In this document: in pieces, positions 1 through 22,818 of the stretch
Position numbering within the stretch: position 1 is the first letter of the stretch
How the letters are laid out: each line of letters begins with the position of its first letter
NCBI RefSeq assembly: GCF_000003605.2
Contig: NW_003119817.1
Location: forward strand, 1 to 22,818
DNA: 22,818 nucleotides
Source: Saccoglossus kowalevskii
Taxonomy: Eukaryota; Hemichordata; Enteropneusta; Harrimaniidae
Direction: 5' to 3'
Program-made: the position numbers and the translations under genes
The notes under the pieces: generated by a model
What the model was told of the DNA's origin: nothing
What the model saw: the letters and a program-made list of their open reading frames with translations, nothing else
The model's database searches: none

Positions 1-841
1 TTCATCATTGCAGCCCTGCTAGTGGAATTCATGCATTGTAGTATATATTGCAGCCTGTCAGTGGAATTCATGCATTGTAGTATCTATCGCACCCTGTCAG
101 TGTAATTCATGCATTGTAGTATATATTGCAGCCCTGCCAGTGGAATTCATGTATTGTAGTGTATATTGAAGCCCTTTCAGTGGAATTCATGCATTGTAGT
201 ATCTATTGCAGCTCTTTCAGTGGAATTCATGCATTGTAGTATCTATTGCAACCCTGCCAGTGGAATTCATGCATTGTAGTATCTCTTGCAGCCCTGCCAG
301 TGGAATTCATGGATTGTGTTATATATTGCAGCCGTGTCAGTGGAATTCATGCAATGTAGTATCTATTGCAGCGCTGCCAATGGAATTCCCGCACTGTAGT
401 ATATATTGCAGCCCTGTCAGTGGAATTCATGCAATGTAGTATCTATTGCAGCCCTGTCAGTGGAATTCATACATTGTAGTATATATTGCACCCTGTCAGT
501 GGAAATCATGCTTTGTGGTACCTATTGCAGCCCAGCCAGTGGAATTCATGCAGTGTAGTATCTGTTGCAGCCCTGTCAGTGGAATTCATGCATTGTAGTA
601 TATATTGCACCCTGTCAGTGGAATTCATGCATTGTGGTATTAATTGCAGCCCTGTCAGTGGAATTCATGCATTGTAGTATATATTGCACCCTGTCAGTGG
701 AATTCATTCTTTGTAGTATCTATTGCAGCACTGCCAATGGAATTCATGTATTGTAGTATATATTGCAGCCCTGTCAGTGTAATTCATGCATTGTAGTATC
801 TATTGCAGCCCTGTCAGTGGAATTCATGCTTTGTAGTGTCT
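1..841. repeat. Region A, D-like part (mosaic HOR fragment)
   Basis: This stretch carries D-family variants. About 10-90 matches 18018-18098 (offset 18008, marked by CCCTGCTAG followed by the short GCAGCCTGTC monomer). About 115-395 matches 15455-15735 (offset 15340). About 400-841 matches 16100-16541 (offset 15700), including the GGAAATCATGCTTTGTGGTA monomer near 500. The change of offset by 360 bp equals nine monomers, so this copy joins parts of two adjacent 9-monomer subunits of D1. At ~841 the match stops and a C-like segment follows. The first ten bases do not fit the monomer phase well. Confidence 0.8.
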
Positions 842-1318
842 ATTGAAGCCCTTTCAGTGGAATTCATGCATTGTAGTATCTATTTCAGCCCTTTCAGTGA
901 ATTCATGCATTGTAGTATCTATTGCAGCCCTTTCAGTGGAATTCATGCATTGTAGTATCTATTGCAGCCCTGCCAGTGGAATTCATGCATTGTAGTATCT
1001 ATTGCAGCCCTGCCAGTGGAATTCATGGATTGTATTATATATTGTAGCCGTGTCAGTGGAATTCATGCAATGTAGTATCTATTGCAGCGCTGCCAATGGA
1101 ATTCCCGCATTGTAGTATATATTGCAGCCCTGTCAGTGCAATTCATACATTGTAGTATCTATTGCAGCCCTGCCAGTGGAATTCATGCATTGTAGTGTAT
1201 ATTGAAGCCCTTTCAGTGGAATTCATGCATTGTAGTATATATTGCAGCCCTTTCAGTGGAATTCATGCATTGTAGTATATATTGCAGCCCTGCCAGTGGA
1301 ATTCATGCATTGTAGTAT
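841..1318. repeat. Region A, C-like part
   Basis: From about 964 to 1318 the order of variant monomers follows C2 at 9569-9923 (offset 8605). Shared markers are the GCGCTGCCAATGG monomer at 1084, the CAGTGCAATTCATACATTG variant at ~1132-1150, and two successive CCCTTTCAG monomers after GTGTATATTGAAG. Monomers between 841 and 964 include two private variants: TATTTCAGCC at ~882 and a one-base loss giving CAGTGAATTC at ~896. At ~1318 the match to C2 ends and the B unit begins. Confidence 0.75.
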
Positions 1319-3508
1319 ATATTGCAGCCCTGTCAGTGGAAATCATGCACTGTAGTATATATTGCAGCCCTGTCAGTGGAATTCATGCATTGTAGTATCT
1401 ATTGCAGCCCAGCCAATGGAATTCATGCAGTGTAGTGTCCATTGCAGCCCTGTCAGTGGAATTCATGCATTGTAGTATCTATTGCAGCCCTGCCAGTGGA
1501 ATTCATGCATTGTAGTATATATTGCACCCTGTCAGTGTAATTCATGCATTGTAGTATCCATTGCAGCCCTGCCAGTGGAATTCATGCATTGTAGTATATA
1601 TTGCACTCTGTCAGTGTAGTTCATGCTTTGTAGTATCTATTGCAGCCCTGCCAGTGGCATTCATGCATTGTAGTATATATTGCATCCCTGCCAGTGGCAT
1701 TCATGCATTGTAGTATATATTGCACCCTGTCAGTGTAATTCATGCATTGTAGTATCTATTGCAGCCCTGTCAGTGGAATTCATGCAGTGTAGTATATATT
1801 GCAGCCCTGCCAGTGGAAATCATGCATTGTAGTATCTATTGCAGTCCTGCCAGTGGAATTCATGCATTGTAGTATCTATTGCAGCCCTGTCAGTGGAATT
1901 CATGCAGTGTAGTGTCCATTGAAGCCCTGTCAGTCGAATTCATGCTTTGTAGTACCTATTGCACCCCTGCCAGTGGCATTCATGCATTGTAGTATATATT
2001 GCACCCAGTCAGTGGAATTCATGCAATGTAGTATCTATTGCAGCCCTGTCAGTGGAATCCATGCAGTGTAGTGTCCATTGCAGCCCTGTCAGTGGAATTC
2101 ATGCTTTTTAGTATCTATTGCAGCCCTGCCAGTGGCATTCATGGATTGTAGTATATATTGCACCCTGTCAGTGGAATTCATGCATTTTAGTATCTATTGC
2201 AGCCCTGCCAGTAGAATTCATGCATTGTAGTATCTATTGCAGCCCTGCCAGTGGAATTCATGCATTGTAGTATCTATTGCAGCCCTGCCAGTGGAATTCA
2301 TGCATTGTAGTATCCATTGCAGCCCTGCCAGTGGAATTCATGCATTGTAGTATATATTGCAGCCCTGTCAGTGGAATTTATGCTTTGTAGTATCTATTGC
2401 AGCACTGCCAGTGGCATTCATGCATTGTAGTATATATTGCAGCCCTGTCAGTGTAATTCATGCTTTGTAGTATCTATTGCAGCCCTGCCAGTGGAATTCA
2501 TGCATTGTAGTATATATTGCACCCTGTCAGTGTAATTCATGCTTTGTAGTATCTATTGCAGCCCTGCCAGTGGCATTCATGCATTGTAGTATATATTGTA
2601 TCCCTGCCAGAGGCATTCATGCATTGTAGTATATATTGCACCCTGTCAGTGTAATTCATGCATTGTAGTATCTATTGCAGCCCTGCCAGTGGAATTCATG
2701 CATTGTAGTATCTATTGCAGCCCTGCCAGAGAAATTCATGCATTGTAGTATCCATTGCAGCCCTGCCAGTGGAATTCATGCATTGTAGTATATATTGCAC
2801 CCTGTCATTGTAATTCATGCTTTGTAGTATCTATTGCAGCCCTGCCAGTGGCATTCATGCATTGTAGTATATATTGCATCCCTGCCAGTGGCATTCATGC
2901 ATTGCAATATATATTGCACCCTGTCAGTGTAATTCATACATTGTATTATCTATTACAGCCCTGTCAGTGGCATTCATGCAGTGTAGTATATATTGCAGCC
3001 CTGCCAGTGGAATTCATGCATTGTAGTATCTATTGCAGCCCTGCCAGTGGAATTCATGCATTGTAGTATCTATTGCAGCCCTGTCAGTGGAATTCATGCA
3101 GTGTAGTGTCCATTGAAGCCCTGTCAGTGGCATTCATGCAGTGTAGTATATATTGCACCCTGTCAGTAGAATTTATGCAATGTAGTATCTATTGCAGCCC
3201 TGTCAGTGGAATTCATGCAGTGTAGTGTCCATTGCAGCCCTGTCAGTGGAATTCATGCTTTGTAGTATCTATTGCAGCCCTGCCAGTGGCATTCATGCAT
3301 TGTAGTATATATTGCAGCCCTGCCAGTGTAATTCATGCATTGTAGTGTATATTGAAGCCCTTTCAGTGGAATTCATGCAGTGTAGTGTCCATTGAAGCCC
3401 TGCCAGTGGAATTCATGCATTGTAGTATATATTGCAGCCCTGTCAGTGGAATTCATGCATTGTGGTATATATTGCAGGTCTGCCAGTGGAATTCATGCAT
3501 TGTAGTAT
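1319..3508. repeat. HOR unit B1, 2190 bp, 55 monomers
   Basis: Landmarks recur 2190 bp downstream. The CCCAGCCAATGG monomer is at ~1408 and ~3598. The CAGTCGAATTC variant is at 1931 and 4121. The GTGGAATTTATGCTTTG variant is at 2371 and 4561. Ten 39-bp monomers can be counted, and 55 x 40 - 10 gives 2190, so the length is fully explained. The unit is rich in GTGTAATTC and GTGGCATTC monomers, which lack the EcoRI site. It has none of the GCGCTGCCAATGG monomers seen in regions A, C and D. The edges are defined by where matching to flanking segments changes and may shift by a monomer. Confidence 0.85.
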
Positions 3509-4468
3509 ATATTGCAGCCCTGTCAGTGGAAATCATGCAGTGTAGTATATATTGCAGCCCTGTCAGTGGAATTCATGCATTGTAGTATCTATTGCAGCCC
3601 AGCCAATGGAATTCATGCAGTGTAGTGTCCATTGCAGCCCTGTCAGTGGAATTCATGCATTGCAGTATCTATTGCAGCCCTGCCAGTGGAATTCATGCAT
3701 TGTAGTATATATTGCACCCTGTCAGTGTAATTCATGCATTGTAGTATCCATTGCAGCCCTGCCAGTGGAATTCATGCATTGTAGTATATATTGCACTCTG
3801 TCAGTGTAGTTCATGCTTTGTAGTATCTATTGCAGCCCTGCCAGTGGCATTCATGCATTGTAGTATATATTGCATCCCTGCCAGTGGCATTCATGCATTG
3901 TAGTATATATTGCACCCTGTCAGTGTAATTCATGCATTGTAGTATCTATTGCAGCCCTGTCAGTGGAATTCATGCAGTGTAGTATATATTGCAGCCCTGC
4001 CAGTGGAATTCATGCATTGTAGTATCTATTGCAGTCCTGCCAGTGGAATTCATGCATTGTAGTATCTATTGCAGCCCTGTCAGTGGAATTCATGCAGTGT
4101 AGTGTCCATTGAAGCCCTGTCAGTCGAATTCATGCTTTGTAGTACCTATTGCACCCCTGCCAGTGGCATTCATGCATTGTAGTATATATTGCACCCAGTC
4201 AGTGGAATTCATGCAATGTAGTATCTATTGCAGCCCTGTCAGTGGAATCCATGCAGTGTAGTGTCCATTGCAGCCCTGTCAGTGGAATTCATGCTTTTTA
4301 GTATCTATTGCAGCCCTGCCAGTGACATTCATGCATTGTAGTATATATTGCACCCTGTCAGTGGAATTCATTCATTTTAGTATCTATTGCAGCCCTGCCA
4401 TTGGAATTCATGCATTGTAGTATCTATTGCAGCCCTGCCAGTGGAATTCATGCATTGTAGTATCTAAT
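3509..4468. repeat. HOR unit B2, 5' part (second B copy, runs into C1)
   Basis: This is collinear with B1 at offset 2190, with scattered substitutions (for example GTGACATTC at ~4321, where B1 has GTGGCATTC). The 2190-bp collinearity continues past 4468 to about 4787, where B2 has three monomers that B1 lacks. From 4469 onward the same DNA also aligns with C2 (offset 3506), so B and C are overlapping descriptions of related units rather than unrelated families. I split them at 4469 to give each C copy the same start point. Confidence 0.8.
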
Positions 4469-4787
4469 GCAGCCCTGCCAGTGGAATTCATGCATTGTAG
4501 TATCCATTGCAGCCCTGCCAGTGGAATTCATGCATTGTAGTATATATTGCAGCCCTGCCAGTGGAATTTATGCTTTGTAGTATCTATTGCAGCACTGCCA
4601 GTGGCATTCATGCATTGTAGTATATATTGCAGCCCTGTCAGTGTAATTCATGCTTTGTAGTATCTATTGCAGCCCTGCCAGTGGAATTCATGCATTGTAG
4701 TATATATTGCACCCTGTCAGTGTAATTCATGCTTTGTAGTATCTATTGCAGCCCTGCCAGTGGCATTCATGCATTGTAGTATATATT

Positions 4788-4906
4788 GCATCTCTGCCAG
4801 TGGCATTCATGCATTGTAGTATATATTGCACCCTGTCAGTGTAATTCATGCTTTGTAGTATCTATTGCAGCCCTGCCAGTGGCATTCATGCATTGTAGTA
4901 TATATT
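4788..4906. repeat. Three-monomer (119-bp) indel present in C-type copies, absent in B1
   Basis: B1 goes directly from the GTGGCATTC monomer to the GTATCCCTG monomer (~2597). In this copy 119 extra bases (two 40-bp and one 39-bp monomer, beginning GCATCTCTGCC) intervene, changing the offset from 2190 to 2309. The same extra triplet occurs in C2 (from ~8292) and C4 (from ~13399). It could be a triplet duplication in the C lineage or a loss in B1; presence in three copies mildly favours loss in B1. Confidence 0.85.
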
Positions 4907-4949
4907 GTATCCCTGCCAGTGGAATTCATGCATTGTAGTATATATTGCA

Positions 4950-5627
4950 CCCTGTCAGTGTAATTCATGCATTGTAGTATCTATTGCAGCCCTGCCAGTG
5001 GAATTCATGCATTGTAGTATCTATTGCAGCCCTGCCAGTGGAATTCATGCATTGTAGTATCCATTGCAGCCCTGCCAGTGGCATTCATGAATTGCAATAT
5101 AAATTGCACCCTGTCAGTGTAATTCATGCATTGTAGTATCTATTGCAGCCCTGCCAGTGGAATTCATGCATTGTAGTATCTATTGCAGCCCTGCCAGTGT
5201 AATTCATACATTGTAGTATCTATTGCAGCCCTGCCAGTGTAATTCATGCATTGTAGTATCTATTGCAGCCCTGCCAGTGGAATTCATGCATTGTAGTATC
5301 TATTGCAGCCCTGCCAGTGTAATTCATGCATTGTATTATTTATTACAGCCCTGTCAGTGGAATTCATGCAGTGTAGTATATATTGCAGCCCTGCCAGTGG
5401 AATTCATGCATTGTAGTATCTATTGCAGCCCTGCCAGTGGAATTCATGCATTGTAGTATCTATTGCAGCCCTGTCAGTGAAATTCATGCAGTGTAGTGTC
5501 CATTGAAGCCCTGTCAGTGGCATTCATGCAGTGTAGTATATATTGCACCCTGTCAGTAGAATTCATGCAATGTAGTATCTATTGCAGCCCTGTCAGTGGA
5601 ATTCATGCAGTGTAGTGTCCATTGCAG
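4950..5627. repeat. 678-bp (17-monomer) tandem duplication, copy 1
   Basis: This is collinear with the adjacent 5628-6305 at offset 678, which is 15 x 40 + 2 x 39. The copies share rare markers: TGCAATATAAATTG, GTGTAATTCATACATTG, TTATTTATTACAG, CAGTGAAATTC and CAGTAGAATTC. I see only one clear difference, CATGAATTGC here near 5088 against CATGCATTGC near 5766. C2 and C3 hold a single copy of this segment, so the doubling is specific to C1 and must be recent. Confidence 0.9.
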
Positions 5628-6305
5628 CCCTGTCAGTGTAATTCATGCATTGTAGTATCTATTGCAGCCCTGCCAGTGGAATTCATGCATTGTAGTATCT
5701 ATTGCAGCCCTGCCAGTGGAATTCATGCATTGTAGTATCCATTGCAGCCCTGCCAGTGGCATTCATGCATTGCAATATAAATTGCACCCTGTCAGTGTAA
5801 TTCATGCATTGTAGTATCTATTGCAGCCCTGCCAGTGGAATTCATGCATTGTAGTATCTATTGCAGCCCTGCCAGTGTAATTCATACATTGTAGTATCTA
5901 TTGCAGCCCTGCCAGTGTAATTCATGCATTGTAGTATCTATTGCAGCCCTGCCAGTGGAATTCATGCATTGTAGTATCTATTGCAGCCCTGCCAGTGTAA
6001 TTCATGCATTGTATTATTTATTACAGCCCTGTCAGTGGAATTCATGCAGTGTAGTATATATTGCAGCCCTGCCAGTGGAATTCATGCATTGTAGTATCTA
6101 TTGCAGCCCTGCCAGTGGAATTCATGCATTGTAGTATCTATTGCAGCCCTGTCAGTGAAATTCATGCAGTGTAGTGTCCATTGAAGCCCTGTCAGTGGCA
6201 TTCATGCAGTGTAGTATATATTGCACCCTGTCAGTAGAATTCATGCAATGTAGTATCTATTGCAGCCCTGTCAGTGGAATTCATGCAGTGTAGTGTCCAT
6301 TGCAG
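5628..6305. repeat. 678-bp (17-monomer) tandem duplication, copy 2
   Basis: This is the second copy, directly abutting the first. At its left edge the sequence reads GCAGCCCTGTCAGTGTAATT where copy 1 has the 39-bp form GCACCCTGTC, which places the exchange point within the first bases of a monomer. At its right edge copy 2 continues into the normal C-unit order (CATGCTTTG monomer), while copy 1 jumps back to GTGTAATTC. This is the layout expected of an unequal exchange in register with the monomer. Confidence 0.9.
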
Positions 6306-6688
6306 CCCTGTCAGTGGAATTCATGCTTTGTAGTATCTATGCAGCCCTGCCAGTGGCATTCATGCATTGTAGTATATATGCAGCCTGCCAGTGTAATTCA
6401 TGCATTGTAGTGTATATGAAGCCCTTTCAGTGGAATTCATGCAGTGTAGTGTCCATTGAAGCCCTGTCAGTGGCATTCATGCAGTGTAGTATATATTGCA
6501 CCCTGTCAGTAGAATTCATGCAATGTAGTATCTATTGCAGCCCTGTCAGTGGAATTCATGCAGTGTAGTGTCCATTGCAGCCCTGTCAGTGGAATTCATG
6601 CTTTGTAGTATTTATTGCAGCCCTGCCAGTGGCATTCATGCATTGTAGTATATATTGCAGCCCTGCCAGTGTAATTCATGCATTGTAG
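6174..6688. repeat. Seven-monomer tandem duplication in C1 (275/279 bp)
   Basis: The GTGTCCATTGAAG monomer at 6174 recurs at 6449, and the following monomers repeat in order: GTGGCATTC, CAGTAGAATTC, GTGTCCATTGCAG, CATGCTTTG, GTGGCATTC, GTGTAATTC. The spacing is 275 bp here but 279 bp in C2 and C3, because four bases are missing at about 6340-6418. The second copy is incomplete and ends where GTGTATATTGAAG would be expected. Confidence 0.85.
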
Positions 6689-7173
6689 TATCTATTGCAG
6701 CCCTGTCAGTGGAATTCATGCATTGTAGTATCTATTGCAGCCCTGCCAGTGGAATTCATGCATTGTAGTATCTATTGCAGCCCTGCCAGTGGAATTCATG
6801 GATTGTATTATATATTGCAGCTGTGTCAGTGGAATTCATGCAATGTAGTATCTATTGCAGCGCTGCCAATGAAATTCCCGCATTGTAGTATATATTGCAG
6901 CCCTGTCAGTGGAATTCATACATTGTAGTATCTATTGCAGCCCTGCCAGTGGAATTCATGCATTGTAGTGTATATTGAAGCCCTTTCAGTGGGATTCATG
7001 CATTGTAGTATATATTGCAGCCCTTTCAGTGGAATTCATGCATTGTAGTATATATTGCAGCCCTGCCAGTGGAATTCATGCATTGTAGTATCTATGGCAG
7101 CCCTGCCAGTGGAATTCCCGCATTGTAGTATATATTGCACCCTGTCAGTGGACTTCATGCATTGTGGTATTAA

Positions 7174-7887
7174 TTGCAGCCCTGTCAGTGGAATTCATGC
7201 ATGGTAGTAAATATTGCAGCCCTGTCAGTGGAATTCATGCTTTGTAGTATCTATTGCAGCACTGCCAATGGAATTCATGCATTGTCGTATTTATTGCAGC
7301 CCTGTCAGTGTAATTCATGCATTGTAGTATCTATTGCAGCCCTCTCAGTGGAATTCATGCTTTGTAGTATCTATTGCAGCACTGCCAATGGTATTCATGC
7401 ATTGTGGTATTTATTGCAGCCCTGTCATTGGAATTCATGCATTGTAGTGTCTATTGCAGCCCTGCCAGTGGAATTCATGCAGTGTAGTATCTCTTGCAGC
7501 CCTGTCAGTGGAATTCATGCATTGTGGTATTAATTGCAGCCCTGTCAGTGTAATTCATGCATTGTAGTATCAATTGCAGCCCTGTCAGTGGAATTCATGC
7601 ATTGTAGTATCTATTGCAGCACTGCCAATGGAATTCATGCATTGTGGTATTTATTGCAGCCCTGTCATTGGAATTCATGCATTGTAGTGTCTATTGCAGC
7701 CCTGCTAGTGGAATTCATGCAGTGTAGTATCTATTGCAGCCCTGCCAGTGGAATTCATGCATTGTGGTATCTATTGCAGTCCTGCCAGTGGAATTCATTG
7801 ATTGTAGTATATATTCCAGCCCTGCCACTGGAATTCATGGACTGTATTATATATTTCATCCCTGCCAGTGGAATTCATGCATTGTAG
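7174..7887. repeat. Three-monomer (120-bp) sub-repeat block in C1
   Basis: Monomer types recur every third copy: GCACTGCCAATGG, then CCCTGTCAGTGTAATTC or CCCTGTCATTGG, then a TCAGTGGAATTCATGC monomer. The GCACTGCCAATGG marker at 7259 recurs at 7379. Because 120 bp is 40 codons, one frame stays open for 119 and then 117 codons, separated by a single TAA. The usual TAG in ATTGTAG is replaced in this frame by TGG (ATTGTGGTAT), with one TCG at 7285. Both segments are initiated by TTG rather than ATG. The translated words are the same as elsewhere in the array. I treat it as non-coding satellite; the equivalent block is at 10006-10719 in C2. Confidence 0.75.
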
Positions 7888-7896
7888 TATATATTG

Positions 7897-7974
7897 CACC
7901 CTTTCTGTAGATTCCATGCATTGTTGTATCTATTGCAACCATGTCAGTGAAATTTATGCATTGCAGTGTCTATT
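7897..7974. repeat. Degenerate monomer pair, landmark ending C1
   Basis: The first monomer (39 bp) reads GCACCCTTTCTGTAGATTCC and lacks both CAGTGG and GAATTC. The second reads GCAACCATGTCAGTGAAATT, followed by TATGCATTGCAGTG. These are the most diverged monomers in the window. The pair recurs ending at 10806 and at 13080, giving spacings of 2832 and 2274 bp, and I use it to set the C-unit borders. In the C2 copy the CATTGTTG of the first monomer is CATATTTG. Confidence 0.9.
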
Positions 7975-9001
7975 GCAGCCCTGCCAGTGGAATTCATGCA
8001 TTGTAGTATCCATTGCAGCCCTGCCAGTGGAATTCATGCATTGTAGTATATATTGCAGCCCTGCCAGTGGAATTTATGCTTTGTAGTATCTATTGCAGCA
8101 CTGCCAGTGGCATTCATGCATTGTAGTATATATTGCAGCCCTGTCAGTGTAATTCATGCTTTGTAGTATCTATTGCAGCCCTGCCAGTGGAATTCATGCA
8201 TTGTAGTATATATTGCACCCTGTCAGTGTAATTCATGCTTTGTAGTATCTATTGCAGCCCTGCCAGTGGCATTCATGCATTGTAGTATATATTGCATCTC
8301 TGCCAGTGGCATTCATGCATTGTAGTATATATTGCACCCTGTTAGTGTAATTCATGCTTTGTAGTATCTATTGCAGCCCTGCCAGTGGCATTCATGCATT
8401 GTAGTATATATTGTATCCCTGCCAGTGGCATTCATGCATTGTAGTATATATTGCACCCTGTCAGTGTAATTCATGCATTGTAGTATCTATTGCAGCCCTG
8501 CCAGTGGAATTCATGCATTGTAGTATCTATTGCAGCCCTGCCAGTGGAATTCATGCATTGTAGTATCCATTGCAGCCCTGCCAGTGGCATTCATGCATTG
8601 CAATATATATTGCACCCTGTCAGTGTAATTCATGCATTGTAGTATCTATTGCAGCCCTGTCAGTGGAATTCATGCATTGTAGTATCTATTGCAGCCCTGC
8701 CAGTGTAATTCATACATTGTAGTATCTATTGCAGCCCTGCCAGTGTAATTCATGCATTGTAGTATCTATTGCAGCCCTGCCAGTGGAATTCATGCATTGT
8801 AGTATCTATTGCAGCCCTGCCAGTGTAATTCATGCATTGTATTATTTATTACAGCCCTGTCAGTGGAATTCATGCAGTGTAGTATATATTGCAGCCCTGC
8901 CAGTGGAATTCATGCATTGTAGTATCTATTGCAGCCCTGCCAGTGGAATTCATGCATTGTAGTATCTATTGCAGCCCTGTCAGTGGAATTCATGCAGTGT
9001 A

Positions 9002-9518
9002 GTGTCCATTGAAGCCCTGTCAGTGGCATTCATGCAGTGTAGTATATATTGCACCCTGTCAGTAGAATTCATGCAATGTAGTATCTATTGCAGCCCTGTC
9101 AGTGGAATTCATGCAGTGTAGTGTCCATTGCAGCCCTGTCAGTGGAATTCATGCTTTGTAGTATCTATTGCAGCCCTGCCAGTAGCATTCATGCATTGTA
9201 GTATATATTGCAGCCCTGCCAGTGTAATTCATGCATTGTAGTGTATATTGAAGCCCTTTCAGTGGAATTCATGCAGTGTAGTGTCCATTGAAGCCCTGTC
9301 AGTGGCATTCATGCAGTGTAGTGTATATTGCACCCTGTCAGTAGAATTCATGCAATGTAGTATCTATTGCAGCCCTGTCAGTGGAATTCATGCAGTGTAG
9401 TGTCCATTGCAGCCCTGTCAGTGGAATTCATGCTTTGTAGTATCTATTGCAGCCCTGCCAGTGGCATTCATGCATTGTAGTATATATTGCAGCCCTGCCA
9501 GTGTAATTCATGCATTGT
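9002..9518. repeat. Seven-monomer (279-bp) tandem duplication in C2
   Basis: GTGTCCATTGAAG at 9002 recurs at 9281 with the same six following monomer types. The second copy is incomplete, ending where the first has GTGTATATTGAAG and the second has TATCTATTGCAG. The same arrangement with identical 279-bp spacing is found in C3 (11356 and 11635). C4 appears to have lost one monomer of the second copy. The duplication therefore predates amplification of the C unit. Confidence 0.85.
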
Positions 9519-10005
9519 AGTATCTATTGCAGCCCTGTCAGTGGAATTCATGCATTGTAGTATCTATTGCAGCCCTGCCAGTGGAATTCATGCATTGTAG
9601 TATCTATTGCAGCCCTGCCAGTGGAATTCATGGATTGTATTATATATTGCAGCTGTGTCAGTGGAATTCATGCAATGTAGTATCTATTGCAGCGCTGCCA
9701 ATGAAATTCCCGCATTGTAGTATATATTGCAGCCCTGTCAGTGCAATTCATACATTGTAGTATCTATTGCAGCCCTGCCAGTGGAATTCATGCATTGTAG
9801 TGTATATTGAAGCCCTTTCAGTGGAATTCATGCATTGTAGTATATATTGCAGCCCTTTCAGTGGAATTCATGCATTGTAGTATATATTGCAGCCCTGCCA
9901 GTGGAATTCATGCATTGTAGTATCTATTGCAGCCCTGCCAGTGGAATTCCCGCATTGTAGTATATATTGCACCCTGTCAGTGGAATTCATGCATTGTGGT
10001 ATTAA

Positions 10006-10719
10006 TTGCAGCCCTGCCAGTGGAATTCATGCATGGTAGTAAATATTGCAGCCCTGTCAGTGGAATTCATGCTTTGTAGTATCTATTGCAGCACTGCCAA
10101 TGGAATTCATGCATTGTGGTATTTATTGCAGCCCTGTCAGTGTAATTCATGCATTGTAGTATCTATTGCAGCCCTCTCAGTGGAATTCATGCTTTGTAGT
10201 ATCTATTGCAGCACTGCCAATGGTATTCATGCATTGTGGTATTTATTGCAGCCCTGTCATTGGAATTCATGCATTGTAGTGTCTATTGCAGCCCTGCCAG
10301 TGGAATTCATGCAGTGTAGTATCTCTTGCAGCCCTGTCAGTGGAATTCATGCATTGTGGTATTAATTGCAGCCCTGTCAGTGTAATTCATGCATTGTAGT
10401 ATCAATTGCAGCCCTGTCAGTGGAATTCATGCATTGTAGTATCTATTGCAGCACTGCCAATGGAATTCATGCATTGTGGTATTTATTGCAGCCCTGTCAT
10501 TGGAATTCATGCATTGTAGTGTCTATTGCAGCCCTGCTAGTGGAATTCATGCAGTGTAGTATCTATTGCAGCCCTGCCAGTGGAATTCATGCATTGTGGT
10601 ATATATTGCAGTCCTGCCAGTGGAATTCATTGATTTTAGTATATATTCCAGCCCTGCCACTGGAATTCATGGACTGTATTATATATTTCAGCCCTGCCAG
10701 TGGAATTCATGCATTGTAG
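10006..10719. repeat. Three-monomer (120-bp) sub-repeat block in C2
   Basis: This is the counterpart of 7174-7887 at offset 2832. The same frame is open for 119 codons, then a TAA, then 117 codons. Differences from C1 are few: GCCAG for GTCAG near 10016, TGG for TCG near 10117, and TTTTAG for TTGTAG near 10634. I see no start-codon context, signal peptide, domain or non-repeat sequence to support a gene. Confidence 0.75.
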
Positions 10720-10806
10720 TATATATTGCACCCTTTCTGTAGATTCCATGCATATTTGTATCTATTGCAACCATGTCAGTGAAATTTATGCATTGCAGTG
10801 TCTATT

Positions 10807-13080: not shown

Positions 13081-14873
13081 GCAGCCCTGCCAGTGGAGTT
13101 CATGCATTGTAGAATCCATTGCAGCCCTGCCAGTGGAATTCATGCATTGTAGTATATATTGCAGCCCTGCCAGTGGAATATATGCTTTGTAGTATCTATT
13201 GCAGCACTGCCAGTGGCATTCATGCATTGTAGTATATATTGCAGCCCTGTCAGTGTAATTCATGCTTTGTAGTATCTATTGCAGCCCTGCCAGTGGAATT
13301 CATGCATTGTAGTATATATTGCACCCTGTCAGTGTAATTCATGCTTTGTAGTATCTATTGCAGCCCTGCCAGTGGCATTCATGCATTGTAGTATATATTG
13401 CATCTCTGCCAGTGGCATTCATGCATTGTAGTATATATTGCACCCTGTTAGTGTAATTCATGCTTTGTAGTATCTATTGCAGCCCTGGCAGTGGCATTCA
13501 TGCATTGTAGTATATATTGTATCCCTGCCAGTGGCATTCATGCATTGTAGTATATATTGAACCCTGTCAGTGTAATTCATGCATTGTAGTATCTATTGCA
13601 GCCCTGCCAGTGGAATTCATGCATTGTAGTATCTATTGCAGCCCTGCCAGTGGAATTCATGCATTGTAGTATCCATTGCAGCCCTGCCAGTGGAATTCAT
13701 GCATTGTAGTATATATTGCACCCTGTCATTGTAATTCATGCTTTGTAGTATCTATTGCAGCCCTGCCAGTGGCATTCATGCACTGTAGTATATATTGCAG
13801 CCCTGTCAGTGGCATTCATGCATTGCAATATATATTGCACCCTGTCAGTGTAATTCATACATTGTATTATCTATTACAGCCCTGTCAGTGGAATTCATGC
13901 AGTGTAGTATATATTGCAGCCCTGCCAGTGGAATTCATGCATTGTAGTATCTATTGCAGCCCTGCCAGTGGAATTCATGCATTGTAGTATCTATTGCAGC
14001 CCTGTCAGTGGAATTCATGCAGTGTAGTGTCCATTGAAGCCCTGTCAGTGGCATTCATGCAGTGTAGTATATATTGCACCCTGTCAGTAGAATTCATGCA
14101 ATGTAGTATCTATTGCAGCCCTGTCAGTGGAATTCATGCAGTGTAGTGTCCATTGCAGCCCTGTCAGTGGAATTCATGCTTTGTAGTATCTATTGCAGCC
14201 CTGCCAGTGACATTCATGCATTGTAGTATATATTGCAGCCCTGCCAGTGTAATTCATGCATTGTAGTGTATATTGAAGCCCTTTCAGTGGAATTCATGCA
14301 GTGTAGTATCTATTGCACCCTGTCAGTAGAATTCATGCAATGTAGTATCTATTGCAGCCCTGTCAGTGGAATTCATGCAGTGTAGTGTCCATTGCAGCCA
14401 TGTCAGTGGAATTCATGCTTTGTAGTATCTATTGCAGCCCTGCCAGTGGCATTCATGCATTGTAGTAAATATTGCAGCCCTGCCAGTGTAATTCATGCAT
14501 TGTAGTATCTATTGCAGCCCTTTCAGTGGAATTCATGCATTGTAGTATCTATTGCAGCCCTGCCAGTGGAATTCATGCATTGTAGTATCTATTGCAGCCC
14601 TGCCAGTGGAATTCATGGATTGTATTATATATTGCAGCCGTGTCAGTGGAATTTATGCAATGTAGTATCTATTGCAGCGCTGCCAATGAAATTCCCGCAT
14701 TGTAGTATATATTGCAGCCCTGTCAGTGGAATTTATACATTGTAGTATCTATTGCAGCCCTGCCAGTGGAATTCATGCATTGTAGTGTATATTGAAGCCC
14801 TTTCAGTTGAATTCATGCATTGTAGTATATATTGCAGCCCTTTCAGTGGAATTCATGCATTGTAGTATATATT
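13081..14873. repeat. HOR unit C4, truncated and chimeric
   Basis: About 13081-13690 follows C2 7975-8584 (offset 5106) and keeps the 12-monomer opening missing from C3. About 13690-13990 instead follows B1 2769-3069 (offset 10921), marked by CCCTGTCATTGTAATTC and TTATCTATTACAG. After 13990 it returns to C order, with one monomer of the seven-monomer pair missing near 14305. It carries the GCGCTGCCAATGA signature at 14674. It stops about 14866, before the triplet block, where D1 starts. Confidence 0.82.
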
Positions 14874-15155
14874 GCACCCTGTCAGTGGAATTCATTCTTT
14901 GTAGTATCTATTGCAGCACTGCCAATGGAATTCATGTATTGTAGTATATATTGCAGCCCTGTCAGTGTAATTCATGCATTGTAGTATCTATTGCAGCCCT
15001 GTCAGTGGAATTCATGCTTTGTAGTGTCTATTGCAGCCCTGCCAGTGGAATTCATAAAGTGTAGTATCTATTGCAGCCCTGTCAGTGGAATTCATGCATT
15101 GTGGTATTAAATGCAGCCCTGTCAGTGGAATTCATGCATTGAAGTATATATTGCA

Positions 15156-15350
15156 CCCTGTCAGTGGAATTCATGCATTGTGGTATTAATTGCACCCTGT
15201 CAGTGGAATTCATGCATTGTAGTATATATTGCACCCTGTCAGTGGAATTCATGCATTGTAGTATCTATTGCACTCTGCCAGTGGAATTCATGCCTTGTAG
15301 TATCTATTGCACCTTGTCAGTGGAATTCATGCTTTGTAGTACCTATTGCA
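15156..15350. repeat. Run of consecutive 39-bp monomers in D1
   Basis: Five successive monomers lack the G of GCAG (GCACCCTG, GCACCCTG, GCACCCTG, GCACTCTG, GCACCTTG), so the local period is exactly 39 bp, or 13 codons. Two frames therefore stay open together and encode 13-residue repeats (one of the PCQWNSCIVV type, one of the LSVEFMHCSIYC type). The same run recurs in D2 (from ~16668) and D3 (from ~18897), and a shortened one in D5 (~21721-21850). Overlapping open frames with no other coding sign argue against a protein. Confidence 0.85.
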
Positions 15351-15545
15351 GCTCAGCCAGTGGAATTCATGCAGTGTAGTATCTGTTGCAGCCCTGTCAG
15401 TGGAATTCATGCATTGTGGTATTAAATGCAGCCCTGTCAGTTGAATTCATGCATTGTAGTATATATTGCAGCCCTGCCAGTGGAATTCATGTATTGTAGT
15501 GTATATTGAAGCCCTTTCAGTGGAATTCATGCATTGTAGTATCTA

Positions 15546-16125
15546 TTGCAGCCCTTTCAGTGGAATTCATGCATTGTAGTATCTATTGCAACCCTGCCAG
15601 TGGAATTCATGCATTGTAGTATCTATTGCAGCCCTGCCAGTGGAATTCATGGATTGTGTTATATATTGCAGCCGTGTCAGTGGAATTCATGCAATGTAGT
15701 ATCTATTGCAGCGCTGCCAATGGAATTCCCGCACTGTAGTATATATTGCAGCCCTGTCAGTGGAATTCATACATTGTAGTATCTATTGCAGCCCTGCCAG
15801 TGGAATTCATGCATTGTAGTGTATATTGAAGCCCTTTCAGTGGAATTCATGCATTGTAGTATTTATTGCAGCTCTTTCAGTGGAATTCATTCATTGTAGT
15901 ATCTATTGCAGCCCTGCCAGTGGAATTCATGTATTGTAGTATCTATTGCAGCCCTGCCAGTGGAATTCATGCATTGTAGTATCTATTGCAGCCCTGCCAG
16001 TGGAATTCATGGATTGTATTATATATTGCAGCGGTGTCAGTGGAATTCATGCAATGTAGTATCTATTGCAGCGCTGCCAATGGAATTCCCGCATTGTAGT
16101 ATATATTGCAGCCCTGTCAGTGGAA
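15546..16125. repeat. ~9-monomer (360-bp) tandem pair in D1
   Basis: The monomer series CCCTGCC, GGATTGT(G/A)TTATATATT, CC(G)TGTC, GCGCTGCCAATGG with ATTCCCGCA, then CCCTGTC occurs twice at 360-bp spacing (signature monomers at 15708 and 16068). Upstream of it the spacing is 320 bp, so one monomer was gained in the second copy. The pair is kept in D2 (17220 and 17580), D3 (19449 and 19809) and D5 (22274 and 22634). D4 retains one signature monomer (21003). Confidence 0.83.
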
Positions 16126-16385
16126 TTCATGCAATGTAGTATCTATTGCAGCCCTGTCAGTGGAATTCATACATTGTAGTATATATTGCACCCTGTCAGT
16201 GGAAATCATGCTTTGTGGTACCTATTGCAGCCCAGCCAGTGGAATTCATGCAGTGTAGTATCTGTTGCAGCCCTGTCAGTGGAATTCATGCATTGTAGTA
16301 TATATTGCACCCTGTCAGTGGAATTCATGCATTGTGGTATTAATTGCAGCCCTGTCAGTGGAATTCATGCATTGTAGTATATATT

Positions 16386-18614
16386 GCACCCTGTCAGTGG
16401 AATTCATTCTTTGTAGTATCTATTGCAGCACTGCCAATGGAATTCATGTATTGTAGTATATATTGCAGCCCTGTCAGTGTAATTCATGCATTGTAGTATC
16501 TATTGCAGCCCTGTCAGTGGAATTCATGCTTTGTAGTGTCTATTGCAGCCCTGCCAGTGGAATTCATAAAGTGTAGTATCTATTGCAGCCCTGTCAGTGG
16601 AATTCATGCATTGTGGTATTAAATGCAGCCCTGTCAGTGGAATTCATGCATTGAAGTATATATTGCACCCTGTCAGTGGAATTCATGCATTGTGGTATTA
16701 ATTGCACCCTGTCAGTGGAATTCATGCATTGTAGTATATATTGCACCCTGTCAGTGGAATTCATGCATTGTAGTATCTATTGCACTCTGTCAGTGGAATT
16801 CATGCCTTGTAGTATCTATTGCACCTTGTCAGTGGAATTCATGCTTTGTAGTACCTATTGCAGCTCAGCCAGTGGAATTCATGCAGTGTAGTATCTGTTG
16901 CAGCCCTGTCAGTGGAATTCATGCATTGTGGTATTAAATGCAGCCCTCTCAGTTGAATTCATGCATTGTAGTATATATTGCAGCCCTGCCAGTGGAATTC
17001 ATGTATTGTAGTGTATATTGAAGCCCTTTCAGTGGAATTCATGCATTGTAGTATCTATTGCAGCCCTTTCAGTGGAATTCATGCATTGTAGTATCTATTG
17101 CAACCCTGCCAGTGGAATTCATGCATTGTAGTATCTATTGCAGCCCTGCCAGTGGAATTCATGGATTGTGTTATATATTGCAGCCGTGTCAGTGGAATTC
17201 ATGCAATGTAGTATCTATTGCAGCGCTGCCAATGGAATTCCCGCACTGTAGTATATATTGCAGCCCTGTCAGTGGAATTCATACATTGTAGTATCTATTG
17301 CAGCCCTGCCAGTGGAATTCATGCATTGTAGTGTATATTGAAGCCCTTTCAGTGGAATTCATGCTTTGTAGTATCTATTGCAGCTCTTTCAGTGGAATTC
17401 ATGCATTGTAGTATCTATTGCAGCCCTGCCAGTGGAATTCATGTATTGTAGTATCTATTGCAGCCCTGCCAGTGGAATTCATGCATTGTAGTATCTATTG
17501 CAGCCCTGCCAGTGGAATTCATGGATTGTATTATATATTGCAGCCGTGTCAGTGGAATTCATGCAATGTAGTATCTATTGCAGCGCTGCCAATGGAATTC
17601 CCGCATTGTAGTATATATTGCAGCCCTGTCAGTGGAATTCATGCAATGTAGTATCTATTGCAGCCCTGTCAGTGGAATTCATACATTGTAGTATATATTG
17701 CAGCTTGTCAGTGGAAATCATGCTTTGTGGTACCTATTGCAGCCCAGCCAGTGGAATTCATGCAGTGTAGTATCTGTTGCAGCCCTGTCAGTGGAATTCA
17801 TGCATTGTAGTATATATTGCACTCTGTCAGTGGAAATCATGCTTTGTATTACCTATTGCAGCCCAGCCAGTGGAATTCATGCAGTGTAATATCTATTGCA
17901 GCCCTGTCAGTGGAATTCATGCAGTGTAGTGTCCATTGAAGCCCTGTCAGTGGCATTCATGCATTGTAGTATATATTTCAGCCCTGCCAGTGGAATTCAT
18001 GCATTGTAGTATCTATTGCAGCCCTGCTAGTGGAATTCATGCATTGTAGTATATATTGCAGCCTGTCAGTGGAATTCATGCATTGTAGTATCTATTGCAG
18101 CCCTGCTAGTGGAATTCAAGCATTGTAGTGTATATTGAAGCCCTTTCAGTGGAATTCATGCATTGTAGTATCTATAGCGGCCCTGTCAGTGGAATTCATG
18201 CATTGTAGTATCTATTGCAGCCCTGCCAGTGGAATTCATGGATTGTATTATATATTGCAGCCGTGTCAGTGGAATTCATGCAATGTAGTATCTATTGCAG
18301 CGCTGCCAATGGAATTCCCGCATTGTAGTATATATTGCAGCCCTGTCAGTGGAATTCATGCAATGTAGTATCTATTGCAGCCATGTCAGTGGAATTCATA
18401 CATTGTAGTATATATTGCACCCTGTCAGTGGAAATCATGCTTTGTGGTACCTATTGCAGCCCAGCCAGTGGAATTCATGCAGTGTAGTATCTGTTGCAGC
18501 CCTGTCAGTGGAATTCATGCATTGTAGTATATATTGCACCCTGTCAGTGGAATTCATGCATTGTGGTATTAATTGCAGCCCTGTCAGTGGAATTCATGCA
18601 TTGTAGTATATATT
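16386..18614. repeat. HOR unit D2, 2229 bp, 56 monomers
   Basis: This follows D1 at offset 1512 until about 17820, then carries an extra 717 bp (18 monomers, three of 39 bp) before rejoining D1 order. 2229 equals 1512 plus 717, so no other length change is needed. Segments of 100 or more codons-equivalent in D1 and D2 translate identically, showing very high identity. The repeat series and 39-bp run are as in D1. Confidence 0.87.
17820..18536. repeat. 717-bp (18-monomer) extra segment in D2
   Basis: The right part (~18135-18536) repeats 17418-17819 at offset 717. Between about 17920 and 18130 are monomers foreign to D1: GTGTCCATTGAAG then GTGGCATTC (a C/B signature), TATATTTCAGCC, two CCCTGCTAG monomers, the 39-bp GCAGCCTGTC and ATTCAAGCATTG. 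D3 holds most of the same segment (~20048-20450), and the start of the window (10-90) matches part of it. Confidence 0.82.
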
Positions 18615-20450
18615 GCACCCTGTCAGTGGAATTCATTCTTTGTAGTATCTATTGCAGCACTGCCAATGGAATTCATGTATTGTAGTATATATTGCAGCCC
18701 TGTCAGTGTAATTCATGCATTGTAGTATCTATTGCAGCCCTGTCAGTGGAATTCATGCTTTGTAGTGTCTATTGCAGCCCTGCCAGTGGAATTCATAAAG
18801 TGTAGTATCTATTGCAGCCCTGTCAGTGGAATTCATGCATTGTGGTATTAAATGCAGCCCTGTCAGTGGAATTCATGCATTGAAGTATATATTGCACCCT
18901 GTCAGTGGAATTCATGCATTGTGGTATTAATTGCACCCTGTCAGTGGAATTCATGCATTGTAGTATATATTGCACCCTGTCAGTGGAATTCATGCATTGT
19001 AGTATCTATTGCACTCTGTCAGTGGAATTCATGCCTTGTAGTATCTATTGCACCTTGTCAGTGGAATGTATGCTTTGTAGTACCTATTGCAGCTCAGCCA
19101 GTGGAATTCATGCAGTGTAGTATCTGTTGCAGCCCTGTCAGTGGAATTCATGCATTGTGGTATTAAATGCAGCCCTGTCAGTTGAATTCATGCATTGTAG
19201 TATATATTGCAGCCCTGCCAGTGGAATTCATGTATTGTAGTGTATATTGAAGCCCTTTCAGTGGAATTCATGCATTGTAGTATCTATTGCAGCCCTTTCA
19301 GTGGAATTCATGCATTGTAGTATCTATTGCAACCCTGCCAGTGGAATTCATGCATTGTAGTATCTATTGCAGCCCTGCCAGTGGAATTCATGGATTGTGT
19401 TATATATTGCAGCCGTGTCAGTGGAATTCATGCAATGTAGTATCTATTGCAGCGCTGCCAATGGAATTCCCGCACTGTAGTATATATTGCAGCCCTGTCA
19501 GTGGAATTCATACATTGTAGTATCTATTGCAGCCCTGCCAGTGGAATTCATGCATTGTAGTGTATATTGAAGCCCTTTCAGTGGAATTCATGCATTGTAG
19601 TATCTATTGCAGCTCTTTCAGTGGAATTCATGCATTGTAGTATCTATTGCAGCCCTGCCAGTCGAATTCATGTATTGTAGTATCTATTGCAGCCCTGCCA
19701 GTGGAATTCATGCATTGTAGTATCTATTGCAGCCCTGCCAGTGGAATTCATGGATTGTATTATATATTGCAGCCGTGTCAGTGGAATTCATGCAATGTAG
19801 TGTCTATTGCAGCGCTGCAAATGGAATTCCCCAGTGTAGTATATATTGCAGCCCTGTCAGTGGAATTCATGCAATGTAGTATCTATTGCAGCCCTGTCAG
19901 TGGAATTCATACATTGTAGTATATATTGCAGCTTGTCAGTGGAAATCATGCTTTGTGGTACCTATTGCAGCCCAGCCAGTGGAATTCATGCAGTGTAGTA
20001 TCTGTTGCAGCCCTGTCAGTGGAATTCATGCATTATAGTATATATTGCACCCTGTCAGTGGAAATCATGCTTTGTATTACCTATTGCAGCCCAGCCAGTG
20101 GAATTCATGCAGTGTAGTATCTATTGCAGCCCTGTCAGTGGAATTCATGCAGTGTAGTGTCCATTGAAGCCCTGTCAGTGGCATTCATGCATTGTAGTAT
20201 ATATTTCAGCCCTGCCAGTGGAATTCATGCATTGTAGTATCTATTGCAGCCCTGCTAGTGGAATTCATGCATTGTAGTATATATTGCAGCCTGTCAGTGG
20301 AATTCATGCATTGTAGTATCTATTGCAGCCCTGCTAGTGGAATTCAAGCATTGTAGTGTATATTGAAGCCCTTTCAGTGGAATTCATGCATTGTAGTATC
20401 TATAGCGGCCCTGTCAGTGGAATTCATGCATTGTAGTATCTATTGCAGCC
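18615..20450. repeat. HOR unit D3 (follows D2, truncated)
   Basis: This is collinear with D2 at offset 2229, then 2228 after a one-base loss at ~19827, where ATTCCCGCACTG became ATTCCCCAGTG. The same altered monomer, with GCAAATGG for GCCAATGG, is found at 22634-22672, so D3 and D5 share descent there. At about 20451 the D2 order breaks: after TATAGCGGCC the next monomers are CCCTTTC and ATTGTGGTATTAAATG instead of the GGATTG series. Confidence 0.83.
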
Positions 20451-21290
20451 CTTTCAGTGGAATTCATGCATTGTGGTATTAAATGCAGCCCTGTCAGTGG
20501 AATTCATGCATTGTAGTATATATTGCACCCTGTCAGTGGAATTCATGCATTGTGGTATTAATTGCAGCCCTGTCAGTGGAATTCATGCATTGTAGTATAT
20601 ATTGCACCCTGTCAGTGGAATTTATGCTTTGTAGTACCTATTGCAGCTCAGCCAGTGGAATTCATGCAGTGTAGTATCTGTTGCAGCCCTGTCAGTGGAA
20701 TTCATGCATTGTGGTATTAAATGCAGCCCTGTCAGTTGAATTCATGCATTGTAGTATATATTGCAGCCCTGCCAGTGGAATTCATGTATTGTAGTGTATA
20801 TTGAAGCCCTTTCAGTGGAATTCTTGCATTGTAGTATCTATTGCAGTCCTTTCAGTGGAATTCATGCATTGTAGTATCTATTGCAACCCTGCCAGTGGAA
20901 TTCATGCATTGTAGTATCTATTGCAGCCCTGCCAGTGGAATTCATGGATTGTGTTATATATTGCAGCCGTGTCAGTGGAATTCATGCAATGTAGTATCTA
21001 TTGCAGCGCTGCCAATGGAATTCCCGCACTATAGTATATATTGCAGCCCTGTCAGTGGAATTCATACATTGTAGTATCTATTGCAGCCCTGCCAGTGGAA
21101 TTCATGCATTGTAGTGTATATTGAAGCCCTTTCAGTGGAATTCATGCATTGTAGTATCTATTGCAGCTCTTTCAGTGGAATTCATGCATTGTAGTATCTA
21201 TTGCAGCCCTGCCAGTGGAATTCATGTATTGTAGTATCTATTGCAGCCCTGCCAGTGGAATTCATGCATTGTAGTATCTATTGCAGCCCT
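20451..21290. repeat. HOR unit D4, contracted
   Basis: This restarts D order at the ATTGTGGTATTAAATG monomer (equivalent to ~18832 in D3). The run between there and the GCAGCTCAGCC monomer has four monomers instead of six (77 bp shorter). It then follows D3 at offset 1554 through the signature monomer at 21003. In that monomer GCACTGTAG has become GCACTATAG. At ~21290 it switches to GCCAATGG with ATTCATGTATTG, the start of D5. Confidence 0.8.
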
Positions 21291-22818
21291 GCCAATGGAA
21301 TTCATGTATTGTAGTATATATTGCAGCCCTGTCAGTGTAATTCATGCATTGTAGTATCTATTGCAGCACTGTCAGTGGAATTCATGCTTTGTAGTGTCTA
21401 TTGCAGCCCTGCCAGTGGAATTCATGCATTGTGGTATTTATTGCAGCCCTGTCATTGGAATTCATGCATTGTAGTGTATATTGCAGCCCTGCCAGTGGAA
21501 TTCATGCAGTGTAGTATCTATTGCAGCCCTGTCAGTGGAATTCATGCATTGTGGTATTAATTGCAGCCCTGTCAGTGGAATTCATGCATTGTAGTATATA
21601 TTGCACCCTGTCAGTGTAATTCTTGCATTGTAGTATATATTGCAGCCCTGCCAGTGGAATTCATGAAGTGTAGTATCTGTTGTAGCCCTGTCAGTGGAAT
21701 TCATGCATTGTGGTATTAATTGCACCCTGTCAGTGGAATTCATGCATTGTAGTATATATTGCACCCTGTCAGTGGAATTCATGCATTGTAGTATCTATTG
21801 CACTCTGTCAGTGGAATTCATGCATTGTAGTATCTATTGCACCCTGTCAGTGGAATTCATGCTGTGTAGTATCTGTTGCAGCCCTGTCAGTGGAATTCAT
21901 GCATTGTGGTATTAAATGCAGCCCTGTCAGTGGAATTCAAGCATTGTAGTATATATAGCACCCTGTCAGTGGAATTCATACATTGTAGTATATATTGCAC
22001 CCTGTCAGTGGAAATCATGCTTTGTAGTACCTATTGCAGCCCAGCCAGTGGAATTCATGCAGTGTAGTATCTGTTGCAGCCCTGTCAGTGGAATTCATGC
22101 ATTGTGGTATTAAATGCAGCCCTGTCAGTGGAATTCATGCATTGTAGTATCTATTGCACCCTGTCAGTGGAATTCATGCATTGTAGTATCTATTGCACCC
22201 TGTCAGTGGAATTCATGGATTGTGTTCTATATTGCAGCAGTGTCAGTGGAATTCATGCAATGTAGTATCTATTGCAGCGCTGCCAATGGAATTCCCGCAC
22301 TGTAGTATATATTGCAGCCCTGTCAGTGGAATTCATACATTGTAGTATCTATTGCAGCCCTGCCAGTGGAATTCATGCATTGTAGTGTATATTGAAGCCC
22401 TTTCAGTGGAATTCATGCATTGTAGTATCTATTGCAGCTCTTTCAGTGGAATTCATGCATTGTAGTATCTATTGCAGCCCTGCCAGTGGAATTCATGTAT
22501 TGTAGTATCTATTGCAGCCCTGCCAGTGGAATTCATGCATTGTAGTATCTATTGCAGCCCTGCCAGTGGAATTCATGGATTGTATTATATATTGCAGCCG
22601 TGTCAGTGGAATTCATGCAATGTAGTATCTATTGCAGCGCTGCAAATGGAATTCCCCAGTGTAGTATATATTGCAGCCCTGTCAGTGGAATTCATGCAAT
22701 GTAGTATCTATTGCAGCCCTGTCAGTGGAATTCATACATTGTAGTATATATTGCAGCTTGTCAGTGGAAATCATGCTTTGTGGTACCTATTGCAGCCCAG
22801 CCAGTGGAATTCATGCAG
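21291..22818. repeat. HOR unit D5, rearranged, runs off the window
   Basis: It opens like D3 at ~18660 (GCCAATGG, ATTCATGTATTG), then carries a C-like patch at about 21400-21560. Next come a run of 39-bp monomers (~21721-21850) and a five-monomer duplication. From ~22268 it follows D3 at offset 2825, including the shared ATTCCCCAGTG monomer, and ends inside the CCCAGCCAGTGG monomer. No array end or unique flank is reached. Confidence 0.8.
21876..22271. repeat. Five-monomer (198-bp) tandem pair in D5
   Basis: The ATTGTGGTATTAAATG monomer and the monomers beside it recur at 198-bp spacing (3 x 40 + 2 x 39), comparing 21876 onward with 22074 onward. The second copy diverges near its end, where GGATTGTGTTCTATATT begins. 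Copy 1 carries ATTCAAGCATTG and ATATAGCACC variants not seen in copy 2, so the pair has since diverged or was patched. Confidence 0.75.

Follow-up and report, generated by a model that had tools for sequence, protein, structure and literature searches.

What fills a 22,818-bp contig of the acorn worm Saccoglossus kowalevskii from its first base to its last, and how does such DNA change? The contig (RefSeq assembly GCF_000003605.2, NW_003119817.1, forward strand; hereafter C1257 or the window, meaning the whole 22,818-bp stretch) is one of 4,830 in an assembly of 572,110,611 bases. A preliminary description made from the letters alone had presented it as a 40-bp satellite organized in very large higher-order repeats (HORs). 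We conclude that the window is very probably an interior piece of an acorn-worm nuclear satellite array, which evolves mainly by in-register exchange of large blocks.

The 40-bp satellite itself was readily borne out. Tandem Repeats Finder (TRF) reports a single array of period 40 with 572.7 copies over positions 7-22817, 87% matches and 0% indels. Cyclic alignment to the TRF consensus, ATTGCAGCCCTGTCAGTGGAATTCATGCATTGTAGTATCT, divides the window (1..22818, plus strand) into 574 monomers of about 40 bp, head to tail and in one orientation, with partial ones at both ends, and a monomer probe finds 308 copies forward and 0 in reverse. There are 197 distinct monomers; on average, monomers are 92.3% identical to the consensus and 87.4% to one another. 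Lengths are 40 bp (n = 475), 39 bp (n = 96) and 38 bp (n = 1), the most frequent length change being the loss of base 7 alone (84/574 monomers). Two monomer positions, 13 and 39, are each divided between two bases (T/C 314/258 and C/A 327/203 among the 574 monomers), and they are the most variable sites also in the two related contigs described below, C3933 and C3073.

Large blocks of these divergent monomers are nearly identical to one another. Counted at the level of monomers, the window contains 29 block pairs of 10-59 monomers, 98.4-99.8% identical, which cover 520 of the 574 monomers; when the order of monomers was shuffled, no block appeared in any of 20 window shuffles or in 5 shuffles of C3933. 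Multimonomer units that are this similar while single monomers are only 87% identical make the repeat a satellite with HORs, and the same contrast upholds the earlier claim of a recent large-block amplification. The lags richest in common exact 60-mers are 2229, 1512, 3741, 2354, 2832, 3506 and 2190 bp, so that the peaks near 1512, 2190, 2229 and 2832 bp on which the preliminary description had staked its HOR model are all present, and the model is not refuted. The share of identical monomer pairs reaches 0.05-0.11 at lags of 71, 56, 94, 38, 59, 55 and 88 monomers. At lags 1-16 it averages 0.012, no different from background (0.012), with single lags ranging over 0.000-0.037 and lag 7 the highest. 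Because short lags average at background while large lags rise so far above it, exchange proceeds mostly in large steps. None of the 572 interior monomers is shorter than 38 or longer than 40 bp; hence no junction in the window departs from the 40-bp register, which is what homology-driven exchange predicts.

The proposed mechanism is as follows. The array would change mainly through in-register exchange, with sister chromatids or homologues misaligned, and the molecular route of exchange would be either unequal crossing-over or break-induced replication that restarts in the wrong repeat. Each exchange would duplicate or delete a block of roughly 17-70 monomers (0.7-3 kb). Repeated events at overlapping places would then give a layered, edited HOR map, and, as each array would change independently, different arrays would come to have monomers in common but not blocks.

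In a simulated array of about 2,500 monomers, segments were duplicated in tandem or deleted, with no selection assumed, either as large blocks (mean of 50 monomers; 12 runs, 8 with geometric and 4 with fixed sizes) or in small steps (mean of 3 monomers; 8 runs). The large-block runs gave 7-103 blocks, a longest block of 39-240 monomers, a coverage of 0.65-0.99 and an identity at lags 1-7 of 0.002-0.011; the small-step runs gave 2-46, 11-50, 0.06-0.46 and 0.14-0.30, respectively. The window has 29 blocks, a longest block of 59 monomers, a coverage of 0.91 and an identity of 0.016. In this simple simulation, large blocks thus match most features of the window, whereas small steps fail on coverage and on short-lag identity.

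At the level of single blocks, the longest pair lies at a lag of 71 monomers (59 monomers, 99.1% identical), followed by those at lags 56 (56 monomers, 99.3%), 38 (37 monomers, 99.3%), 55 (32 monomers, 99.2%) and 57 (12 monomers, 99.0%); further lags include 17, 59, 88, 94 and 128. Linking the 29 blocks and some shorter ones, 37 in total, yielded 145 classes of recurring monomers (106 with 2-4 members, 36 with 5-6 and 3 with 7-8, pieces counted) and two unit families, HOR-A (71 monomers, 2832 bp) and HOR-B (38 monomers, 1512 bp).

HOR-A starts at monomers 114, 202, 273 and 330, with partial copies at monomers 59-86 and 25-34; all features are given here in plus-strand coordinates. Its first copy (monomers 114-201, 4466..7971) is a 71-monomer unit with an internal 17-monomer tandem duplication at 4944..6298 (4944-5620 against 5621-6298, 99.7%), the closest pair among the four full tandem duplications of the window; the 88-monomer lag is the sum of unit and duplication. 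The second copy (monomers 202-272, 7972..10803) is the 71-monomer unit of 2832 bp. The third (monomers 273-329, 10804..13077) has 57 monomers, the initial 12 and two single ones being absent, and the fourth (monomers 330-373, 13078..14830) is shortened and matches parts of monomers 202-248. The partial copy at monomers 25-34 (921..1320) matches monomers 241-250. A 55-monomer (2190-bp) period has its first copy in monomers 35-89 (1321..3510), with 35-66 matching 90-121 at 99.2%.

HOR-B starts at monomers 374, 412 and 468. The first copy (monomers 374-411, 14831..16342) has 38 monomers in 1512 bp, the second (monomers 412-467, 16343..18571) has 56 in 2229 bp, that is 38 + 18, and the third covers monomers 468-514 (18572..20441). 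Pieces of the unit are found at monomers 8-22 (245..841, matching 402-416 at 99.2%), 520-535 (20640..21279, matching 481-496 at 99.4%) and 560-573 (22231..22788, matching 489-502 at 99.5%). The preliminary description had listed units of 38, 55, 56, 57 and 71 monomers. Each of these periods exists; however, several are indel forms of one unit and none runs on. A regular run of many equal units was not found in the window: since every unit period is present in few, edited copies, the window is a mosaic of edited blocks and not a regular higher-order array.

The repeat has further copies elsewhere in the assembly. Two exact repeat patterns of 34 and 31 letters were counted assembly-wide with the reversed patterns as controls, giving 255 forward and 136 reverse matches for the former and 76 and 89 for the latter (controls 0). 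Both patterns are confined to the window (64 and 26 matches), C3073 (191 and 50) and C3933 (136 and 89), whose combined 119,931 bp equal 0.021% of the assembly, a figure that reflects the assembled DNA and not the animal's content and that leaves out contigs with divergent monomers only. We relied on these counts, since DNA searches with stretches of the window recovered C3933 and C4286 but not C3073 and therefore cannot show absence. No flank of the array was found in C1257, C3073 or C3933, all of which start and end within the repeat.

The window and C3073 have 109 blocks in common, the longest of 44 monomers (99.7%), and none was left in three shuffles. These blocks cover 541 of the 574 window monomers (94%) and 742 of the 1,348 monomers of C3073, and their order is scrambled, because the 30 longest sit on many different diagonals. 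Turnover is fast enough to have left most window monomers in shared but rearranged blocks, and it is clearly seen to go block by block. C3073 and C3933 each have their own block structure; within C3073 no block of the 91 is longer than the longest one, of 42 monomers, and each of the top 25 stays within its lag. Exact copies of window monomers are frequent in both contigs (509/574 in C3073 and 244/574 in C3933). Nevertheless, the block comparison found no block common to the window and C3933, and only one, of 12 monomers, common to C3073 and C3933. As C3933 thus shares monomers but no block with the window and a single block with C3073, at least two array dialects exist.

A second satellite, with a 41-bp monomer, is carried by C4286 (78,826 bp), of which two 10-kb pieces both proved to be entirely repeat. 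It differs from the 40-bp satellite in consensus, in length and in its contigs (C4286, C2948 and C755, none of them among the three above). The two consensuses can nonetheless be aligned with a score of 34 (300 shuffles: mean 13.2, maximum 24), and they have the core TGMATTMCACTGACAGRGCTG in common. By this alignment the two satellites are homologous and form one wider family. The 41-bp satellite also has near-identical blocks (97.8-99.9%), and C2948 and C4286 together hold 43 copies of the exact 41-mer. A 36-bp variant of its monomer is frequent, at 29/248 monomers in one 10-kb piece and 28/249 in the other. The core occurs 1,382 times forward and 343 times in reverse (control 0). The reverse copies are those of the window (117) and C3073 (226), C3933 holds 229 of the forward ones, and the remaining 1,153 lie on further contigs, those among the matches listed all being on C755. 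That the core binds a protein is only a guess.

The mitogenome of the same assembly (C4830, 17,037 bp) has the characters of Saccoglossus. Pfam matches place COX1 and ND6 on the strand opposite to that of ND1, COX2, ATP6, COX3, ND4, ND5, cytochrome b and ND2; the rRNAs lie between ND6 and ND2, followed by ND2, ND1, the inverted COX1 and COX2. Of nine internal ATA codons in COX1, five align with Ile in each of two mammalian chains and the others with Val or Leu, except for one Met in one chain. The single COX1 AAA codon aligns with Lys in both chains, and the eight ND1 AAA codons fall on positions that we take to be conserved Lys. AGA stands in frame within ND1, cytochrome b and ND2 and is hence a sense codon here, and AGG is absent from all ten genes or partial genes that were counted. 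For S. kowalevskii mitochondrial DNA, a Rhabdopleura paper (PMC3121625) describes an inverted COX1 and a transposed ND1 or ND2 relative to Balanoglossus, and a code in which AUA is Ile, AAA is Lys, AGG is unused and AGA is Ser; a Xenoturbella paper (PMC2697986) concurs on AAA and ATA. C4830 thus agrees in the inverted COX1, the transposed ND1/ND2, ATA as Ile, AAA as Lys and the unused AGG. These characters point to Saccoglossus or a very close relative as the host. A cephalochordate origin was rejected: in Asymmetron, as described, COX1 and COX2 are on the same strand, whereas they are on opposite strands in C4830, and ATA is read here as Ile. An echinoderm was rejected since AAA is read as Lys, and the plants pistachio and Chenopodium because the mitogenome is that of an animal. 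The inverted COX1 has 32 ATT and no ATC codons, compared with 14 and 9 in ND1 and 9 and 7 in COX2, a bias that fits a long residence on the other strand.

Several findings weigh against an acorn-worm array shaped mainly by large-block exchange. The identity at lags 1-7 in the window (0.016) lies above every one of the 12 large-block runs, and lag 7 reaches 0.037. In C3933, lags 1-4 are enriched (0.028-0.033 compared to 0.014), and there are several tandem duplications of 2-8 monomers. Since the observed short-lag identity exceeds all large-block runs, small steps likely occur in the window too, and C3933 shows them more clearly. Longer small-step runs give 15-46 blocks, which overlaps with the observed 29; the number of blocks alone is therefore undecisive, and it is coverage together with short-lag identity that separates the two models. 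The runs were unfitted, and event numbers and mutation rates were not the same in both models. No array edge is seen in the three contigs, and other harrimaniids may have the same mitochondrial gene order.

The array is presumably structural, lying in heterochromatin and giving no product. The consensus contains no CpG (observed/expected ratio in the window 0.05), the 12 open reading frames of 102-119 aa, the longest of 119 aa, all lie on the plus strand within the repeat, and no RNA family matches the window at gathering scores. A secondary-structure function for the repeat was considered and rejected, as a 160-nt piece of the array folded as DNA no better than its shuffles (z 0.63).

The rival that survives best is one that is compatible with block exchange, namely that the array is a functional centromere core, recruiting CENP-A, with the HORs as its homogenised active centre, as in chicken CNM or primate alpha satellite. 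We regard this as possible, though short of probable. Its array-specific blocks resemble the HORs of alpha satellite, which are chromosome-specific. CENP-B boxes, which occur in many alpha-satellite arrays, are absent: neither strict nor relaxed matches were found on either strand of the window and C3933. Variability per site is alike in the window and C3933 (Spearman 0.79), two arrays without common blocks. Such agreement is compatible with what constraint or common ancestry would produce, and inherited variants explain it equally well. The two tested patterns are on only three assembled contigs, and the second, 41-bp family competes for the role. The nearest structural parallel, the chicken repeat CNM (41 bp, HOR units of 26-98 monomers; PMC9974502), is centromeric, but that study places chicken CENP-A usually at or near the edges of CNM and not in its body. 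By likeness to CNM, a centromeric or pericentromeric place of the array is plausible, though less likely than not.

Rolling-circle amplification, in which blocks are excised as circles, copied and reinserted, is unlikely. It would likewise hold the register and make kilobase-sized blocks; however, the long run of equal units that circles would favour is not seen, and plain tandem duplication yields a similar pattern in simulation. Even less likely is it that the assembler invented the large periods by stacking reads of a simpler array. In its favour, the contig is entirely repeat without a unique anchor, and 10 of the interior monomers in C3933 are odd in length (36-45 bp). Against this, the four full tandem duplications are 99.1-99.7% identical and none is 100%. 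Moreover, 39 monomers differ between duplication copies, and C3073 contains the first-copy form exactly in 24 cases and the second-copy form in 27; since both forms occur exactly in this independent contig, the differences are real variants. The separate block structures of C3073 and C3933 speak against an artefact as well. Replication slippage in steps of one to a few monomers is the least credible of all: it could point to the few 2-8-monomer duplications in C3933 and to many-event small-step runs that match the observed number of blocks, but lags 1-16 in the window average at background and 8/8 small-step runs miss the coverage and overshoot the short-lag identity.

One unrelated tandem array was noted elsewhere in the assembly. 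Positions 1-5000 of contig C2500 hold a dense run of 20 tRNA genes, each of them minus-strand (ARAGORN; Rfam also gives 20 tRNA matches), spaced 217-268 bp apart; 19 are tRNA-His with a GTG or ATG anticodon and one was left without assignment.

The description of the family as unrecognised holds within the collections and literature searched. The exact 34-letter pattern has no match in viral contigs or in bacterial and archaeal genome contigs, a blastn query of 1001 bases from the window matched no plasmid or phage, and six monomer words of 16-18 letters were not found in the literature searched. With up to 3 mismatches allowed, the primers for PIVE-40 of pistachio find no site in the window. 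Among the titles listed by literature searches none is on a hemichordate satellite, a weak basis for priority, and in the main text of a 2024 paper on hemichordate chromosomes (PMC11175523) "satellite" and "tandem repeat" are absent, while the single "centromer" is part of a cited title. In these sources, little thus appears to have been described of the satellites and centromeres of hemichordates, the neighbouring phylum of the echinoderms. The family is probably new, although of an already known kind, with giant HORs on a monomer of about 40 bp. It would serve as a ready probe for fluorescence in situ hybridisation and for CENP-A.

Among known systems, large repeat units on short monomers are also exemplified by cattle satellites with kilobase units and by human satellite 3, with its 5-bp monomers. 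Chenopodium CficCl-61-40 (about 40 bp) and pistachio PIVE-40 (43 bp) are alike in combining a short monomer with HORs; they are plant families, and their HORs take the form of monomers of up to 332 bp and of dimers. For CficCl-61-40, both likeness and difference are drawn from its published description and not from its sequence. Alpha satellite likewise has big HOR units with indel variants: in orangutan, a 59mer is described in six copies together with two 56mer variants (PMC11276891). This runs counter to the earlier remark that alpha-satellite units usually hold far fewer monomers, while the alpha monomer of about 171 bp sets it apart from the 40-bp repeat of the window. In chicken, a 21-bp satellite of the W chromosome forms divergent HORs (PMC9974502). 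The closest system is chicken CNM, where divergent monomers of about 40 bp are likewise assembled into giant HORs, as are the 39-40-bp monomers here in units of 38-71. As giant HORs on such a monomer already exist in CNM, the earlier argument from rarity fails. CNM, compared here by description and not by sequence, belongs to another phylum and forms clusters of 5-162 HOR units, as opposed to the few edited copies of the window. A stronger reading, which we consider rather doubtful, is that the 40- and 41-bp superfamily with its giant mosaic HORs would be a hemichordate centromere core, independently convergent with the 41-bp CNM of birds. If so, about 40 bp, a quarter of the nucleosomal repeat, would be a recurrent centromere-competent length in deuterostomes.

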